Below, piece by piece: positions 27,852 to 35,079 of a stretch of 35,286 nt of DNA. Both the position numbers and the translations under genes were made by a program. Where the stretch lies: NCBI GenBank assembly GCA_017514045.1, contig JAFWLS010000010.1:1-35286 (forward strand), in the 5' to 3' direction. Position 1 is the first letter of the stretch. Every line of letters begins with the position of its first letter. The notes below the pieces were generated by a model. It was given only the letters and a program-made list of their open reading frames with translations. It did no database searches and was not told the origin of the DNA. Source of the DNA: Candidatus Saccharimonadota bacterium (GTDB taxonomy: Bacteria > Patescibacteriota > Saccharimonadia > Saccharimonadales > Saccharimonadaceae).

Positions 27852-27880
27852 TTGACAAAAAAACAAGCATATGCTATAAT
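27852..27880 (+). promoter_or_regulatory. Consensus promoter of the 27946 gene, with repeats around the -10
   Basis: TTGACA (27852-27857), a 17-nt spacer, and TATAAT (27875-27880) within TGCTATAAT: fully consensus. AAGCATATG occurs at 27865-27873 and again at 27883-27891, flanking the -10, and contains the palindrome GCATATGC; this could be an operator. Confidence 0.88.
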
Positions 27881-27888
27881 AAAAGCAT

Positions 27889-27924
27889 ATGTTCCCAACT
27901 GGGGGAGGGAAACAAGATCATTAA
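27889..27924 (+). CDS. Leaderless-type 11-codon mini-ORF in the leader
   Basis: An ATG 8 nt after the -10 opens MFPTGGGKQDH and stops at TAA (27922-27924), 6 nt before the AGGAGGG of the gene at 27946. It could be a translated leader affecting the downstream gene. Only geometry supports it. Confidence 0.3.
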   Translation: MFPTGGGKQDH

Positions 27925-27945
27925 ACTTTAGGAGGGAGTATTAAA

Positions 27946-28452
27946 ATGGCAAAAGACCGCTGGAGCATGGGCAACACGCCCGATAATGCTACACCCGTAA
28001 GTAGACGGACCCCGGTTCTCCCGGTTCAGGCTGGCTCACAAAGGACATCCCCGTCCGAAGATCTGCCCGTAAAGATAATTTATCAAAGCGGCAGGGAAAT
28101 AACCCTTACGGAGGAAATGACTTCAACATATGGCCCGCTGATCAACGCTGTGATAATACCCGTTGCTAAGCGAAACGCTGAGACGAGGGAAAGAACTGCC
28201 AGACGTTTCTGGCGCTTGAATCTGCATGTTGATAGGCCCACCTTCTTTGACGATGGACAAATCATAAACAGGGCGAAAAGCGTTGGCCTTGATGTCAGCG
28301 ACCCCGTGGAAGCCGCCAAGGCAATGAACTTTGTCGCAAAATATTTCGTGGTAGACGAAACTGGAGAACCTATTGTCAGAGACGGTAGATGGATCGAAGC
28401 CGAACCTGCCGACTATAGGCCCGCACCTATTAGCAATCCGCCGACCACATAA
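27946..28452 (+). CDS. Soluble protein of unknown function
   Basis: I do not recognise this 168-residue protein. The first 45 residues and the last 20 are Pro/Ser/Thr-rich and probably disordered. The middle (about 46-150) looks globular: a beta-rich KIIYQSGREITLTEEM, an Arg-rich helix RNAETRERTARRFWRLN, and a helix-rich part (INRAKSVGLDVSDPVEAAKAM). There is no signal peptide or membrane helix. It has a fully consensus promoter, a strong AGGAGGG site (27930-27936) and a strong terminator, so it is a well-expressed monocistronic gene. Its codon use (AGG, ACG, GGG, CCG) differs from the housekeeping genes, hinting at transfer or a different expression class. Confidence 0.75.
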   Translation: MAKDRWSMGNTPDNATPVSRRTPVLPVQAGSQRTSPSEDLPVKIIYQSGREITLTEEMTSTYGPLINAVIIPVAKRNAETRERTARRFWRLNLHVDRPTFFDDGQIINRAKSVGLDVSDPVEAAKAMNFVAKYFVVDETGEPIVRDGRWIEAEPADYRPAPISNPPTT

Positions 28453-28468
28453 CCACTCCCCCAGAACC

Positions 28469-28493
28469 AGGCGCCCAAAAAGGGCGCCTTTTT
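28469..28493 (+). terminator. Terminator of the 27946 gene
   Basis: GGCGCCC (28470-28476), AAAAA loop, GGGCGCC (28482-28488), then TTTTT. Confidence 0.92.
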
Positions 28494-28542
28494 ATTATGC
28501 TTATACTTTAATTTACTACGCGTCAAGCTTATGGTATAAGTA

Positions 28543-28571
28543 TTGACAAAATTGCTTATGTGTGATATAAT
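28543..28571 (+). promoter_or_regulatory. Consensus promoter of the 28699-30584 operon
   Basis: TTGACA (28543-28548), a 17-nt spacer, and TATAAT (28566-28571) preceded by TGA (extended). GCTTATG occurs at 28527-28533 and 28554-28560, bracketing the -35. Confidence 0.87.
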
Positions 28572-28577
28572 GGTCTC

Positions 28578-28698
28578 AGTCTGTATAAGAGCGTGTTAGA
28601 TCTTATATAAACGGTCATTAAAACCGAATCATCCCAGACACAAACGCATTGTCTGGAATCAAATACGAGTCATAATTTTATTTAGGGAGGGGAAATAC
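28578..28698 (+). promoter_or_regulatory. Long structured 5' leader of the 28699-30584 operon
   Basis: About 120 nt separate the expected transcription start from the ATG. CCAGACA (28634-28640) can pair with TGTCTGG (28650-28656), and the AGGGAGGGG ribosome site lies just before the ATG. No known riboswitch is recognised. Confidence 0.45.
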
Positions 28699-29175
28699 AT
28701 GTTGGGACACGTTATACTTGTGGTGGTAGCCACCGTAGTCGGATACATGCAGTATCTGAACATACAGAACCACCGTATGAAGACTTATTTCGAAACTTAC
28801 GAAGTAAGTCGAGAAGATCGAAACAACCTTTCAACCGAAGAAACCAGGGACCGAATTGCATTAGCCTTCAGGTTAATAATATGGTGCTTATGCGCCATAT
28901 TTAGCCTGTGGGGCAATCTCCTGGGAGCCATCCTCACGACGGTTTTTACCGTTGAGGCCGTATGGCATATCTTCAAGGAAGCGTTCAGCGCCGACAAGTC
29001 CAGGGCATCAGCCCTGAACTGCTTATTCTTTCCCTTTGCGGGATTGATTATGGCGTACGCTATGAAGGGTCTCGGGATTATCCCGGGCATCCTGATAGGG
29101 CTAGTAATCGTAGGTATTCCTACAGCCCTGAACTGGATTAATCGTAACGGAACAACCACGGAACGAAGGGGGTGA
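28699..29175 (+). CDS. Multi-helix membrane protein of unknown function
   Basis: I do not recognise this 158-residue protein. Hydrophobic segments lie at about residues 3-20, 54-72, 73-90, 108-126 and 128-146, so four or five membrane helices are likely. A charged loop (about 22-50, YEVSREDRNNLSTEE) follows the first helix. It begins behind a strong ribosome site and a long leader, and its stop (29173-29175) lies within a few nt of the next gene start, so the pair is translationally coupled. This suggests the small membrane protein and the secreted Pro/Thr-rich protein work together. Codon use is unlike the housekeeping genes. Confidence 0.78.
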   Translation: MLGHVILVVVATVVGYMQYLNIQNHRMKTYFETYEVSREDRNNLSTEETRDRIALAFRLIIWCLCAIFSLWGNLLGAILTTVFTVEAVWHIFKEAFSADKSRASALNCLFFPFAGLIMAYAMKGLGIIPGILIGLVIVGIPTALNWINRNGTTTERRG

Positions 29176-29180
29176 AATTC

Positions 29181-30584
29181 GTGTTTAAGCGTTTCCCCGT
29201 GCTGGCCACAATTATCGTTGCTGTGCTGATCTGTCTTCTGATCTGGGGAGGCTGGACCCTGGCCTACAACCAGGGTTGGGTTGCACAAGCACCCAGCTGG
29301 GATGTCCTGACTGGTAGTGCCCCCTCAGAAAGGAGCATGCTTGTCCCGACGCCCACAGCAGAACCGACAGTTCCGGAGCAAAAGGCAGCGCCTACTGCGC
29401 CGCCTGCGGATGAGCCGACGACAGTTCCGGAGCAAAAGGCAGCGCCTACTGCGCCGCCTGCGGATGACCACGTTGCTCCACCCGCTGAGCCCACAAAGGC
29501 TCCAGAGGCAGTCTATACTCTTACTGGCAAGACAGTGTCTTTCACCATGAAGGGTGCCGACTCAAAAGAGAATAAGGTCACCCTCGAAACATTCACCTAT
29601 AAAGGCGGATGGCAAAGAGGATCGGACAGCTGGTTCATCGCTAAGGATGGGAATCTCGAGAAAGAGACGCCCGAATCCTTCGGTACACCTATTTCCGGAG
29701 ATGACTGGGCAAAAAAGACCAGTAATTGGCTAAAACGCGCAGTCTCGGATCCTTGGACCCTGACATGGTTCAGGTTCCAAATGCATCGGGAAAGCTTCTC
29801 TGACATGGAGAAGGTAAACCAGTATGCAAAAAATCTCGCCGACCTCCCCACTAACGAATATGATGAAATCGCAAATGCGACTCTATCACATTTCTTTAAG
29901 AGGGTGAACAATGGCCGCGCTGAGGTTGATCCAAACTGGGGTCTCGAAGTAATGCTTCGTGAGCCCGGCAAGGGCAAGGGGACCTTAGAGCTGTTCGCAA
30001 GAACTAACTCTGACGGGAACCATACACCGGACCTGCTGGTCACGTTCTATGCCAAAGGAGAGAGCACCAGCTTTATCTCCTATAAGAAGGCCTGGAGCGT
30101 AGCAGCGAAAGCTGCTGGAGTCAGCTCTAACAAGTTCAAGCCTCGCGCCTACGTCAATCTGACGGAAGGAGGGACTTGGAAATGGAAGGTAGCTGGCGGC
30201 GGCAGCGGCGGTAATCCTCCTACGGATGCACCGACCTCAACGCCAAAACCTGATAAAGACCGGCCGACGAAGGACCCCAAACAGCGCCCGACGCCACCGG
30301 TTGGCGGCGGAGAAGTAAACCCGAAGAATTCGGAGGATCCGCATACGACGAATCACACCGAATCCACTCCGGCGCCCAAGGTGACGGAAGCCCCGAAGCC
30401 AACGGCTACTCCCACTCCGGTGCCAACCGCAGTTGTCCGTCCTACGGAAAACTGCGAAACTGTAGTACCGAATCCAGTCCGTGAGGACAAGAACACGCCG
30501 CCGCCCTCAAACGGTGAGCACAATGTTCCCACGGAAAAACCCGGTGGCGTTGCTGATGACAGCTTCGACCCTGATAGCATTTAA
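29181..30584 (+). CDS. Membrane-anchored extracellular protein with Pro/Thr-rich linkers
   Basis: I do not recognise the family. The product has about 467 residues: one N-terminal membrane helix (about 6-27), a Pro/Thr/Ala/Glu-rich stalk (about 45-110) holding a two-copy 18-residue repeat, a globular part (about 113-340) starting VYTLTGKTVSFTM and with several Trp-rich segments (WFIAKDG, WTLTWFRFQMH, YKKAWSVAAKAAG), and a second Pro/Thr-rich tail (about 345-467). There is no LPxTG or second helix, so it is held by the N-terminus. I chose the GTG at 29181 because GAAGGGGG (29165-29172) is well placed for it; the GTG at 29172 overlaps that site and would add three residues. High-GC codons suggest a foreign origin. 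Confidence 0.75.
   Translation: MFKRFPVLATIIVAVLICLLIWGGWTLAYNQGWVAQAPSWDVLTGSAPSERSMLVPTPTAEPTVPEQKAAPTAPPADEPTTVPEQKAAPTAPPADDHVAPPAEPTKAPEAVYTLTGKTVSFTMKGADSKENKVTLETFTYKGGWQRGSDSWFIAKDGNLEKETPESFGTPISGDDWAKKTSNWLKRAVSDPWTLTWFRFQMHRESFSDMEKVNQYAKNLADLPTNEYDEIANATLSHFFKRVNNGRAEVDPNWGLEVMLREPGKGKGTLELFARTNSDGNHTPDLLVTFYAKGESTSFISYKKAWSVAAKAAGVSSNKFKPRAYVNLTEGGTWKWKVAGGGSGGNPPTDAPTSTPKPDKDRPTKDPKQRPTPPVGGGEVNPKNSEDPHTTNHTESTPAPKVTEAPKPTATPTPVPTAVVRPTENCETVVPNPVREDKNTPPPSNGEHNVPTEKPGGVADDSFDPDSI
29367..29467 (+). repeat. 54-bp-period tandem repeat in the Pro/Thr stalk
   Basis: A 47-bp identical sequence occurs at 29367-29413 and 29421-29467 (period 54 bp, in frame). Each encodes TVPEQKAAPTAPPAD. 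The exact nucleotide identity indicates a recent duplication and possible length variation between strains. Confidence 0.9.
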
Positions 30585-30784
30585 CTCGTAGCACCTTATT
30601 CGCCTAGGCGGTTCTCCGCCTAGGCATACCCAAGTTTGTTTCTGAGATGATTCGGCTTTAGACTACGACGTATTTTAACAATTCGGCTAGTCAAAAGAAA
30701 GATTCTAGAGGTCATTTTTTCAATTACCCCTAGAAAAATAATATCAATCGTGTTAATCTATTAATCAACCTATAAGGAGTTATT
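30585..30784 (+). promoter_or_regulatory. Intergenic region with perfect palindromic hairpin and S-layer gene leader
   Basis: GCCTAGGCGG (30602-30611) and CCGCCTAGGC (30616-30625) form a perfect 10-bp stem around TTCT; no T-run follows, so it may be a weak terminator or an mRNA-end stabiliser. ATTCGGCT occurs twice (about 30651 and 30682). No -10 is clear for the next gene; TTTTCA with TAATAT at about 30738-30743 is one weak option. AAGGAG at 30774-30779 is the ribosome site. Confidence 0.5.
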
Positions 30785-32026
30785 ATGAAAAACATTAAAT
30801 CTGTTCTTGGCGTTGCGGTCGTTACTGCTATTGCCGGAACTGCTTTAGTTGCCTCCAACGCTTCTGCTTGGGGTGACTCTGACGGTGGTCGTAAATCTTA
30901 CACCATCGAGGAAATCAATAAGGGTGCTATTGACGATCAAATCGTCTTTAACTCTATTTCCGACAACCCTGACTTGAACGAGCTTTACTTCGTTCAAGCC
31001 CGTGCCGCTGACGCAGAGAATGTCTGGAATGCTAATGACATCGAAGTCGAGAACGGCAAAGAATATATCGTACGTCTTTACGTCCACAACAACAACCCTC
31101 GTGGTACGGAAATGGTCGCTAAGGGCGTAGCTGCTAACGTTAATGTTCCTACCGAATCTGGTAAATCTGTTACCGTTACTGGTACCATTAGCGCTGAAAA
31201 CAGCAAACCGGCTAAGGTTTGGGACGAAGTCGTCTTCAAATCTGAAACCAATACCTTCCACCTTGAATACGTTAAGGGCTCTGCTCTTATCGAAAACAAG
31301 GGTAAAATCAACAATACCAAACTTAGCGACAACCTCGTGATGGGTGGTACTACCCTCGGTTACGATTCACTTAACGGTGAAATCCCTGGCTGTTTCGGCT
31401 ACGCTGCTATTGTCACCTTCCGTGTCAAGGCAGTTTACGACTATGACTTCTCTGTCACCAAGCTCGTTCGTCTTGCTGGTGAAACCGAATGGAAGAAACA
31501 GGTCTACGCCAAAGTTGGTGATACTGTTGAATACAAAATTACCTACAAAAATACTAGCGACTCTCTTGAGAAAGACGTTGTCCTCTTCGATAAGCTAGGC
31601 AGCAACCAAACTTACGTTCCTGGTTCTACCAAACTTTACAATTCGAACTACAAAGACGGTCTTGCTCTTAAAGATGGTCTAACCACTTCTGAAGGTATCA
31701 ACATCGGTGATTACAAAGCTAACGCCGCTGCTGTCGTCACCTTCCAAGTTACTATGAAAGATGACAACCTCGGTTGTGGTGGTGATAACGTTCTCCGCTC
31801 TTGGGCTCAAGGTTATATCGGTCACGAAGAAACCATGAAACAAGATTACGCTGATGTTCTCATCTACAAAGGCTGCCCAAAGAATGAAAAACCTGTTGAT
31901 CCAGTTCAACCTGCTCAACCGGAACTTCCATCTACTGGTGCTTCCGACATCGCTGCTACCGCCCTTGGCGCTGGCTCCCTTGTCACAGCCGCTGGTTACT
32001 TCTTGACTAGCCGCAAACGCTTCTAA
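30785..32026 (+). CDS. LPSTG-anchored S-layer-like major surface protein
   Basis: The 413-residue protein has a signal peptide (about 1-28, ending SNASAWG), two extracellular beta-rich parts, a Pro-rich stalk (PVDPVQPAQPELP) and a sortase signal: LPSTG (381-385), a hydrophobic helix and a KRF basic end. Residues about 220-350 fit a DUF11-like domain (VGDTVEYKITYKNTSDSLEKDVVLFDKLGSNQTYVPGST), which is found in repetitive surface proteins. Codon choice is strongly restricted (GGT, GCT, CGT, ACC, AAC, GAA), the most biased in the window, which suggests very high expression, as for a major envelope protein. It contains four Cys, possible disulfides. It ends at a strong terminator. Sortase is not in the window. 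Confidence 0.85.
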   Translation: MKNIKSVLGVAVVTAIAGTALVASNASAWGDSDGGRKSYTIEEINKGAIDDQIVFNSISDNPDLNELYFVQARAADAENVWNANDIEVENGKEYIVRLYVHNNNPRGTEMVAKGVAANVNVPTESGKSVTVTGTISAENSKPAKVWDEVVFKSETNTFHLEYVKGSALIENKGKINNTKLSDNLVMGGTTLGYDSLNGEIPGCFGYAAIVTFRVKAVYDYDFSVTKLVRLAGETEWKKQVYAKVGDTVEYKITYKNTSDSLEKDVVLFDKLGSNQTYVPGSTKLYNSNYKDGLALKDGLTTSEGINIGDYKANAAAVVTFQVTMKDDNLGCGGDNVLRSWAQGYIGHEETMKQDYADVLIYKGCPKNEKPVDPVQPAQPELPSTGASDIAATALGAGSLVTAAGYFLTSRKRF

Positions 32027-32100: not shown

Positions 32101-33627
32101 TTATCTTTTATTACCTGGCCCCATCCTACCGCCAGGCTCTATTCTGCCAGACCCCACCTGGGTAGTTTTCTCAGACAATGTTACGGCTGTGTAGAAATCG
32201 TTGTTGATGTATATAGAATACGTTTTACCATCCTCGAATGCGTCACTACTGAGTGAGGCGTGTTGAAAACTCTTAGCGCTACTATGCCTCAATACAATTT
32301 CGCCATTTGCATCAGTCACCTTGATTGTTGTCCCGGCGCCATAGGTCGATCCGAAGAATATCGATATAGAATTCTTCTCAGAAGCAGGAACTGGCGCTAC
32401 CGCCATTCCGCTGGCACCGACCGCCACTATTGACCCGCCGTTGTAAACAACGCCTGTCTCTGCATCGAGCGCACCGTTTCCACTGTTGGTTGGGCCATCG
32501 ACAATGACGGTACCACCATTTACATAAAAAGCTCCATTACTATCGATGCCATCGCCAGTAGAGTTCACGTATAGACTCCCGCCATTGATAGAGATCGCGT
32601 AGGCATTTGAGCTTTGCTGATATCTGCTCATATTTGGCGACGAACCATCATTCCCGCCAGCAGCATTTATCCCGTCGTCGCTTGCTACTATAGACACGTC
32701 TCCGCCATTGATAGTGATTTTTGCACCCTCTAGACCTTCGTAACTTTTAGATATTTGGACAATCCCGCCATTTATTTCGAGCGACGATTCGGCATGTACA
32801 CCGTCATCGCCGGCATTTATAGTAATCACTCCACCATCTATCTTAATCCAGCCTTTACCCACCTCTTCGCTATTATTGGATTTTATCGCATCGCCGCCAG
32901 ATATAATTTCAAATGTACCATCCACGATATAGACCGAATCTCTTCCGCGAATACCTTCATCCTTCGCATCGATAACATAAGATCCAGAGTTAATCTTTAA
33001 ATCGTCTTTACCAACAATACCGTCCTCATAATTTGCCTGCACCTTAAGTAGGCCTGCGCCCTGCAAAACAAGATCATCATGCGAGAATATCGTACCACAT
33101 ACGTCTTCATCCCAATCATAATAAACGGAGCCGTCAATAAGTGTGTTCGTGCTGTCTTCACTCGTTTCTATGACCACAAGTTTAGCTTCCGCAACATAGA
33201 TTGCTGGCCCACTATTATTAGTGATAGAAACATTATCTAGTATCAGTTTCACTGCTCCGATAGAAGTAATTTCAACATATCCATCAGTCAGCTCTCCAGT
33301 TAGAGTATACACACCAGGATCGGTGATTAATGTTTTGCCTGTCCCAGAAAGTTCAATCGATTTAGCTTTATATTTTTCCCAATTTTCACTAGTATCATTG
33401 ATATTATTCGTAAGGGACGAACCATTATCGCAATTCGTCCAATCGAGCGCCAAACCCAGTATTATGACTGCGGCTAGCAATATGATGATCATAATAATAG
33501 GGAACCATTTGCTAGGCTTTTTTTCGCGTTTTTTGCCTTCACTGGGTACTTTTTTCGCAACTTCGCTACGCGCTCTGTTAGTCTTCCTACCCCTATTTCT
33601 TTGAGAAGATTGCTCTATTTCCTTCAC
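32101..33627 (-). CDS. Carbohydrate-binding (Cthe_2159/DUF4353-like) beta-helix surface protein
   Basis: The 508-residue protein has a basic N-terminus, one membrane helix (about 40-62) and a long extracellular region of short repeats such as GGVITINAGDDGVHAESSLE, ITINGGDVSIVASDDGINA and GDGIDSNGAFYVNGGTVIVDG. This Gly/Asp-rich pattern is that of the Cthe_2159 (DUF4353) family, a right-handed beta-helix reported to bind plant-type polysaccharides and calcium. A Gly/Arg-rich tail ends it. Translation starts at a GTG that overlaps the TAG of the upstream gene by one base, so it is coupled. It is the last gene of the VTC-DUF4956 operon; such genes are often neighbours, but their joint function is not established. 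Confidence 0.88.
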   Translation of the reverse strand: MKEIEQSSQRNRGRKTNRARSEVAKKVPSEGKKREKKPSKWFPIIMIIILLAAVIILGLALDWTNCDNGSSLTNNINDTSENWEKYKAKSIELSGTGKTLITDPGVYTLTGELTDGYVEITSIGAVKLILDNVSITNNSGPAIYVAEAKLVVIETSEDSTNTLIDGSVYYDWDEDVCGTIFSHDDLVLQGAGLLKVQANYEDGIVGKDDLKINSGSYVIDAKDEGIRGRDSVYIVDGTFEIISGGDAIKSNNSEEVGKGWIKIDGGVITINAGDDGVHAESSLEINGGIVQISKSYEGLEGAKITINGGDVSIVASDDGINAAGGNDGSSPNMSRYQQSSNAYAISINGGSLYVNSTGDGIDSNGAFYVNGGTVIVDGPTNSGNGALDAETGVVYNGGSIVAVGASGMAVAPVPASEKNSISIFFGSTYGAGTTIKVTDANGEIVLRHSSAKSFQHASLSSDAFEDGKTYSIYINNDFYTAVTLSEKTTQVGSGRIEPGGRMGPGNKR

Positions 33628-34298
33628 TAAATTAGTGCCTCCTTCGACACGTGGCTGAGCAATACCTTTAGATTAGAATTTTTAACCCTAATTGCGTCTA
33701 AGAATTCTTTCTCGTTCGCCGTCTTTTTTAGATTAATTTCATAAGTTAATACATATAGGCTACCCATGTTGCTAGTTTTACTGCGTACTAACTCATGATG
33801 GCTAGTGTATTTTTTAAATTCTGCATCGAATACGTGAGAGTAATCAAGGTCTTCCGGGATAGTTATCTGGAGAGTCTGTGGTTGAGCGTTGAGGTTGAAG
33901 ATATTTGTCTTCGACAGAATCAGAATCACTATTACCGTTATTGCTGTAATGACAGCAGCAAATAATATATGGCCCATACCGAGCGCTAAACCAACTGCCA
34001 TTGCGAAGAACACACTGGATATCTCCTTAGAGTTACCAGCGATTGAACGGAATCTAATTAGCGAGAATGCGCCTAAGATGGCAATTGATGTCCCGAGCGA
34101 ACCATTCACCATCAACATTACTACCTCTACGAGCAGTGGTAGAATTGTCAACGTAATTAAAAAGTTACGGCTAGTTCTACTAGTTTTTAGGTGCGTGAAT
34201 GCAATCACGAGCCCGAGCGCTAGCGCTGCTCCAGAACACAACAAAATCGTCGCGATATTTAATCCCGCCGACGCCGTGTCAAATACGCTATTAAACAT
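33627..34298 (-). CDS. DUF4956 membrane protein
   Basis: The 223-residue protein has four hydrophobic helices in its first 135 residues and a cytoplasmic C-terminal domain (about 140-223) of alternating strands and helices. The signature GSLGTSIAILGAFSLIRFRS, followed by AGNSKEI, matches the conserved DUF4956 core. Its biochemical role is unknown. The ATG overlaps the end of the upstream VTC gene by 8 nt, and its stop overlaps the next start, so all three genes are translationally linked. Neighbourhood suggests that it works with the VTC-domain protein at the membrane. Confidence 0.9.
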   Translation of the reverse strand: MFNSVFDTASAGLNIATILLCSGAALALGLVIAFTHLKTSRTSRNFLITLTILPLLVEVVMLMVNGSLGTSIAILGAFSLIRFRSIAGNSKEISSVFFAMAVGLALGMGHILFAAVITAITVIVILILSKTNIFNLNAQPQTLQITIPEDLDYSHVFDAEFKKYTSHHELVRSKTSNMGSLYVLTYEINLKKTANEKEFLDAIRVKNSNLKVLLSHVSKEALI

Positions 34299-35079
34299 TT
34301 TTTTCCTTTCGTTTAGTTATTAATTGATATATCTTTCCATATTTAGAAAACCTTATCGGATATGTGTGGAGCTTATCCACTTCTGTCACAAACCATGTTG
34401 GCATGGCGTGCATAGTCTTAATCTCCATAATGATTGAACGTTTCGGGTCTGGCGTGGTAGGGAAATATTTTTCGCCATCGCCACCTTTTTCCAACCTCAA
34501 ATTATCAGTCCTGAATCTCAAGTTTTCGTCAAACGTCAATCTAAAACCCTTATCGTCTTTGCCTCTATATGCCGTTCGGTCAGAGACAATCAGTAGCTGC
34601 GGCTTTAATCCATAATACTTGACTAGATAGTCCAGCTCTTTCGCAACCTGAAGCTGCTGAGTGTCGCCCTTTGAAGCTTTTCTAGCGATCTCTTCTAAAT
34701 CAGCACCTTTTTCTATGTACGCATAAAAATCTTTTAGTGGAATTACTAGCCGTCGTTTATTGCCAATTCTTCTGTGATTAACTTTTAATTTCGTCTTAAC
34801 CTCGAAGAATATTCGTTTTGAACGTGATGGCACGTCATATGATCGAGCACGTACTTTCATGCGAAAGTCTGGTTTATCTAGAGATTTAACTGCCAAATCG
34901 TAATTATCTGTGTCAAGGTACAAGCTCAGGACCTCTTCCTTATAGAACTCATCGTGATCCAGCCTTTTATCGATTGCTTTCATCAGCGCGGTCTTCTGTT
35001 GCTTCGTGAGTAGGAATTTTTCTTCGATCCGCTCGATAGTCCGGTCACTCTTAGAGAGTTCCGCTTTCGCTTTTTTCAT
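34291..35079 (-). CDS. VTC-domain protein (polyphosphate polymerase-like)
   Basis: The 262-residue protein matches the bacterial VTC domain, related to the catalytic domain of the yeast polyphosphate polymerase Vtc4 and built as a tunnel. Basic and acidic tunnel-type motifs are visible: RIEEKFLL (17-24), LSLYLDTDNYD, RMKVRARSYD, IFFEVKTKL, SDRTAYRGKDDKGFRLTFDENLRF and IMEIKTMHAMPTW. The presence of EVK and EIK with paired RxRxR supports the tunnel fold. Polyphosphate synthesis is plausible but not proven for bacterial members. It heads the operon: its -10 ends exactly 6 nt before the ATG, while the two following genes are coupled by overlap. Confidence 0.88.
   Translation of the reverse strand: MKKAKAELSKSDRTIERIEEKFLLTKQQKTALMKAIDKRLDHDEFYKEEVLSLYLDTDNYDLAVKSLDKPDFRMKVRARSYDVPSRSKRIFFEVKTKLKVNHRRIGNKRRLVIPLKDFYAYIEKGADLEEIARKASKGDTQQLQVAKELDYLVKYYGLKPQLLIVSDRTAYRGKDDKGFRLTFDENLRFRTDNLRLEKGGDGEKYFPTTPDPKRSIIMEIKTMHAMPTWFVTEVDKLHTYPIRFSKYGKIYQLITKRKEKNV

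Follow-up and report, generated by a model that had tools for sequence, protein, structure and literature searches.

A conserved locus for a diverging, probably surface-displayed stalked protein, preceded by a structured leader RNA, in a genus of Candidatus Saccharibacteria

When genes match no known family and depart from the codon use of their genome, the question arises whether they were acquired from elsewhere or belong to the lineage that carries them. This question is raised by three adjacent genes, at 27946-28452 (gene 1), 28699-29175 (gene 2) and 29181-30584 (gene 3) on the plus strand of a 35,286-nucleotide stretch of DNA from a Candidatus Saccharimonadota bacterium (the whole stretch is called the window here), which is a contig of an 845-kb genome with a completeness of 98.6%. 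A first, sequence-only reading had proposed either an acquired export-and-display system or a host-interaction module under separate control. That interpretation is partly supported by comparison with relatives, which a protein search found among Candidatus Saccharibacteria, mostly from the ruminant gut: the observations behind it are confirmed, and a display module under separate control finds support, and a new structured RNA ahead of genes 2 and 3 makes this reading more specific, but acquisition of the block is not borne out.

Codon use and genomic position of the block

As anticipated, no significant match to the three genes was found in Pfam, NCBIfam or PHROGs, the best being a low-complexity hit to NCBIfam GltJ at 20 bits against a cut-off of 450 bits. 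Within a reference set of 58 genes pooled from three contigs, the three genes rank first, second and third in codon atypicality (z -3.9 to -6.3), and two paralogues elsewhere in the same genome rank fourth and eighth. The GC content at third codon positions (GC3) is 0.52-0.57 in the three genes versus 0.44 in the reference. Among the codons singled out by the sequence-only reading, AGG is clearly enriched (from 0.11 to 0.20-0.40), whereas ACG, CCG and GGG are raised modestly or in one gene only; the largest shifts concern CTG (from 0.08 to 0.33-0.45) and CCC (from 0.11 to 0.27-0.44).

These values could be expected of a recently acquired foreign module, a genomic island that had kept the codon usage of its donor together with Firmicutes-like promoters, and clear relatives of gene 3, sharing its class C head domain, turn up by sequence search in 7 of 174 genomes of the genus (110 of them of high quality), which gives an appearance of sporadic acquisition. 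Comparison by position changes that view. In 53 of 53 genus loci inspected, the site is occupied by positional orthologues that share promoter, RNA and gene order; the RNA is present in 151 of the 174 genomes, and in nearly every species these orthologues show atypical codon use as well. In 41 of 46 genomes the locus has a GC3 above that of the local background (mean +0.087, p 4e-8), and this GC3 also tracks the background of each genome (r 0.6), so that atypical codon use is a lasting property of these genes; repeated exchange between relatives, or selection, may have produced it. No integrase or transposase was recognised among the nearest neighbours, tblastn matched gene 3 to none of 50,697 phage records and none of 72,556 plasmid records, and gene 1 to none of the plasmid records, and viral contigs held no relative of either of the two proteins tried, the gene 3 head and one fused relative. 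A recent island is thus very improbable, and we rejected it on the synteny of the orthologues, the distribution of the RNA and the recurring codon shift; an origin from phages or plasmids was rejected on the null searches. Conservation throughout the lineage and codon use within the normal genome range had both been named beforehand as speaking against acquisition; the conservation was found, the normal codon use was not. It is possible that individual heads are imported by homologous recombination between species.

The order of the conserved locus is RNA, anchor/stalk gene(s) and a gene for an LPXTG/DUF11 surface protein, within 1.7-2.8 kb, in 53 of 53 loci, and the stalked gene always adjoins the DUF11 gene. 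In about 30 of the 53, a single fused protein with six transmembrane (TM) helices takes the place of genes 2 and 3; most stalked proteins of the genus start with five extra TM helices, so the window's genes 2 and 3 represent a split form of this fusion, and as the break lies in a loop predicted to be cytoplasmic, topology would be kept. The DUF11 gene that follows gene 3 is present in 96 of 198 genomes surveyed from the order, a diverged stalked protein rich in proline and threonine (Pro/Thr) being encoded upstream of it in other species, and such pairs also occur far outside the genus.

A structured leader RNA ahead of genes 2 and 3

Each transcription unit of the block has its own promoter, as the sequence-only reading had it, and this supports separate control of the display proteins. 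Both promoters, at 27852-27880 for gene 1 (with TATGC ahead of the -10 element) and at 28543-28571 for genes 2 and 3 (with TGTGA there), match the TTGACA and TATAAT consensus at 12 of 12 positions around a 17-nucleotide spacer, with TG preceding the -10 element; they are the only perfect ones among four promoter-like sites found, where 3.3 of any quality were expected by chance. The strong Shine-Dalgarno (SD) sites that had been noted are AGGAGGG for gene 1 and AGGGAGGGG for gene 2 (28684-28692).

The leader between the second promoter and gene 2 is conserved at the DNA level even where the proteins diverge, and contains a structured RNA of about 90 nucleotides (28575-28662, plus strand). Its elements are an invariant AGUCU, a helix P1 (28584-28590 with 28601-28607), a helix P3 (28634-28640 with 28650-28656) and, between the two, a conserved linker, CAUUAAAACCGAAUCAUC in the window, which across leaders takes the form of a near-invariant strand, CAUUAA(C)AACCRAAUCAUCYCAG. 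Among 13 sequences, double changes occur at 11 of 14 pairs, and 94.5% of the paired cells can pair as against 71% in shuffled and at most 44% in slid controls; with 40 sequences, compensatory changes are seen at 13 of 14 pairs. A covariance model built on this structure finds the RNA in the 151 genus genomes mentioned above (104 of the 110 of high quality), nearly always as a single copy; elsewhere in the family it has matches in only 2 of 220 genomes, one of them marginal. The RNA lies in the 5' untranslated region directly before the anchor/stalk gene(s) in 53 of 53 loci. No Rfam 15 family reaches its gathering threshold on it, scans for weaker matches staying far below the cut-offs, and no description of the locus or of the RNA was found in a search that covered part of the literature. 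Structure and synteny of this previously undescribed leader RNA can be regarded as shown.

In many relatives, a GC-rich hairpin with CCUCC lies downstream of the RNA domain and could pair with the SD sequence. A motif scan finds such an anti-SD-like element ahead of the SD site in 26 of 42 leaders, and four of these leaders, when folded, were more stable than all of their shuffled versions. Three further candidates were set aside: (i) a leader peptide was rejected, as its ATG overlaps the -10 element and the start would precede transcription; (ii) a pairing of AGUCUG with the 5' arm of P3, seen in many sequences, is not kept in two loci (L106 and L113) and is not claimed; and (iii) a loop-loop contact of GCG with CGC (GUG with CAC in L034) is backed by a single compensatory case and likewise not claimed. 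An extra, weaker copy of the RNA stands ahead of a membrane-only gene in one relative (L109, G125:C4, 6724-6798 and 6097-6729, minus strand), which suggests duplication of an RNA and anchor module. In another genus of the family, RNA-like motifs with a CAUUAAAAUC linker and a CAA-loop hairpin precede stalked-protein loci (L114, 8551-8640; L118, 6796-6887) and may, judging by their sequence, be distant relatives of the leader RNA.

The stalked protein, its heads and its neighbours

The coupling of the last two genes had been read correctly, as had their products, a multi-helix membrane protein and an exported protein with Pro/Thr stalks on both sides of a globular core. Gene 2 encodes 158 residues with five predicted TM helices and corresponds to the part that, in most genus members, is joined to the stalked protein in one gene; its stop overlaps an alternative start of gene 3 (29172-29175, alternative start 29172), and the GTG start at 29181 has the better SD spacing. 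The product of gene 3 consists of one TM helix, a Pro/Thr stalk, a globular head, a second Pro/Thr stalk and a conserved tail ending in DDSFDPDSI. The head, of class C, comprises about 230 residues (29490-30200) that are delimited by alignment and predicted by AlphaFold with a local confidence (pLDDT) of 93.7 and a template-modelling score (pTM) of 0.92.

Across the genus, the median identity of the stalked protein is 0.28 and that of the DUF11 protein 0.50, the latter being the more similar of the two in 350 of 350 random pairs. The nonsynonymous divergence (dN) of genes 2 and 3 within the closest clade is 0.23-0.69 versus 0.04-0.11 for most neighbours. Of the genes compared, nearly all have saturated synonymous sites, but the DUF11 gene does not (synonymous divergence, dS, 0.5-0.8), which suggests very strong codon constraint on an abundant, very highly expressed protein. 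The tail of the stalked protein is conserved above the level of its head, and in two related species (L113 and L106) the flanks, the leader (86% at the DNA level) and the tail (about 72% amino acid identity in its best stretch) are common to both, with a class C head in L113 and a class A head in L106. The comparison thus shows fast divergence, gene fusion and replacement of head A by head C, or the reverse, between related species.

The AlphaFold model of head A (pLDDT 91.3) has the same order of secondary structure as that of head C, H-loop-H(DP)H-H-H-EEEE; profile comparisons of either with head B were not significant. Searches with head C gave no clear match to a solved structure (best Foldseek E 0.07, best VIA-align Z 3.7) and none to viral models. 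Those with head A gave no clear match either (Foldseek E down to 0.12, Z up to 2.1); Z reached 2 or more for just three chains, which look NTF2-like but scored only 2.0-2.1. For these predicted models, the lack of a match would be no proof of new folds.

The N-terminal stalk of the window contains a near-perfect 51-nucleotide direct duplication (29366-29466, TVPEQKAAPTAPPADE twice), as expected where stalks vary in length, and two contigs of relatives (L026 and L027) break within TPTPTP repeats. A second copy of the leader RNA with a stalked head-C protein lies at G000:C17:32913-34701 (L004, 4911-6730, minus strand), with neither gene 2 nor DUF11, an amplification seen in the window's own clade (G000, G002, G031, G117, G179). 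A third head-domain paralogue adjoins a second DUF11/LPXTG gene at G000:C13:77145-80353 (L033, 5083-8353), with no RNA; the stalk of the latter is divided over two frames, by a real or an assembly frameshift. A distant version of the head occurs in proteins of about 1300 residues in two further genomes (L060 and L061; G173:C2 and G003:C6), followed by an ATP-grasp-like gene, with no DUF11 gene there.

Upstream, gene 1 encodes a variable cytosolic protein of 168 residues that lacks a signal peptide, and is followed by a strong intrinsic terminator of its own (28469-28489, an 8-bp stem and a T run). In nearly all loci a positional orthologue of gene 1 precedes the RNA, with the same extended -10 promoter ahead of it, and many of these orthologues share a C-terminal motif, roughly YKYWDY...LTPDIW.A.QASNG...IWVWY.DG.I.HILT.EEL, that is largely lost in the window's clade. 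Downstream, the LPXTG cell-wall-anchored DUF11-like partner (30785-32026, plus strand) passes the Pfam Gram_pos_anchor cut-off (23.8 bits, cut-off 20). A tight run of genes for a Cthe_2159 carbohydrate-binding protein, DUF4956 and a VTC (polyphosphate) domain follows on the minus strand (32101-35079) and adjoins the locus in at least two relatives too (L029 and L111).

Probable surface display and competing explanations

We put at roughly 55% the probability that this is a conserved hypervariable surface-display locus whose RNA-led anchor/head unit, expressed from strong promoters, serves contact with the host bacterium. Transcription of gene 1 and that of the RNA-led display unit would each start from a strong promoter; gene 2 (predicted N terminus out, C terminus in) and the TM helix of gene 3 (C terminus out) would form one membrane anchor, holding the fast-evolving head just outside the membrane; and the Pro/Thr stalk would carry the conserved tail outward, probably across the wall towards the LPXTG/DUF11 protein encoded next door. 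Rapid change of the head is what a contact surface would show if its partner varies, and this partner is most likely the host bacterium, or its phages and defences. The RNA is conserved to a much higher degree than the proteins encoded behind it, which suggests that display is RNA-controlled, and the compact conserved domain, with an SD-hiding hairpin downstream in many relatives, makes it most likely that a metabolite, an ion or a protein acts through the RNA to adjust how strongly the anchor/head protein is translated. We infer ligand, topology, regulation and host contact from these patterns; cultured Saccharibacteria live attached to other bacteria, and a role in host interaction would be plausible. 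Only tentatively would we go on to suppose that a genus-specific riboswitch-like RNA acts on the translation of a hypervariable protein for host contact in epibiotic Patescibacteria and thereby gates attachment or host choice by a sensed signal, the head being a new fold swapped between species within a conserved anchor and tail.

Several observations weigh against surface display under RNA control. The folding energy of the window's own short leader equals that of its shuffled versions (z 0.08), and an anti-SD hairpin was sought there and not found; given the hairpin in many relatives and the lack of a platform in the window, a translational switch is a reasonable, unproven reading. Other genes of the closest clade are also fast (TrxB, dN 0.19-0.32; the downstream Cthe_2159 gene, about 0.3), and as saturation of synonymous sites makes dN/dS not measurable, positive selection is not demonstrated. 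The likeness of heads C and A in hhalign is weak (P 5.6e-4, probability 30%, colinear, against 0.1 for a reversed control), and the Pfam and NCBIfam searches found no known adhesive domain in the stalked proteins.

The RNA might instead be a constitutive element that fixes expression at a high level, for instance by stabilising the 5' end or by binding a dedicated protein, for which the gene 1 product is a candidate. Its single copy and one gene context, the version in the window with no obvious expression platform and the encoding of gene 1 just upstream in nearly all loci would all suit such a role, but the invariant linker and P3 region and the anti-SD-like element in 26 of 42 leaders resemble a sensor with its platform, and we consider a constitutive role rather unlikely. 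Doubtful, too, is the idea that the locus helps to build the envelope or surface layer by organising the abundant DUF11/LPXTG protein, in place of contacting the host, and that its divergence reflects loose constraint: the invariable pairing with the DUF11 gene, the conservation of the tail above the head and the pairs well beyond the genus speak for it, while a divergence far above that of the paired surface protein and the replacement of head A by head C, or the reverse, within a frame that is otherwise kept speak against it.

Surface display finds parallels among known systems. The fibrillar (stalked) adhesins of Gram-positive bacteria (PMC9210967) likewise join a membrane or wall anchor, a Pro/Thr-rich stalk and a fast-evolving globular domain, and a surface anchor and such a stalk are predicted in genes 2 and 3; the locus protein differs from them in having no recognised adhesive domain, in its multi-TM anchor in place of a signal peptide and LPXTG motif, and in a head set between two stalks with a conserved tail beyond. 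The essential surface or adhesin proteins found in Southlakia epibionticum by transposon sequencing (PMC10633639) are also envelope-exposed Saccharibacterial proteins thought to act at host contact, but they carry VCBS, dockerin or FnIII domains and have no link to the leader RNA or heads described here. Similarly, LPXTG/DUF11 surface proteins (Pfam Gram_pos_anchor, DUF11) are represented by the downstream partner, whereas genes 2 and 3 have no LPXTG motif and, in the Pfam search, no domain. The leader RNA resembles orphan riboswitches and other cis-regulatory leaders (Rfam cis-reg) in its compact covarying domain straight after the promoter, its near-invariant unpaired stretches and a downstream part that varies and in many relatives includes an anti-SD hairpin; it differs in its lack of an Rfam match, in being restricted to a single genus and in occurring once per genome, in one gene context. 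Metabolite riboswitches usually stand ahead of several genes.

To conclude, atypical codons and the absence of homologues need not mean horizontal gain, and here they mark a vertically conserved, diversifying locus. The covariance model of the RNA, with one site per genome, provides a precise locus finder where the proteins have diverged too far for BLAST, and the RNA can be assayed outside the uncultured organism. In a cultured relative, transposon sequencing has shown that epibiotic growth requires envelope adhesins (PMC10633639); a review describes the molecular mechanisms behind such growth and behind cell-cycle regulation as virtually unknown (PMC11665869). How Saccharibacteria recognise and hold their hosts, and how this is regulated, is largely unknown, and the present work offers for these questions a concrete, genus-wide locus in which a displayed domain evolves fast, the surface partner stays fixed and one conserved RNA stands in front.

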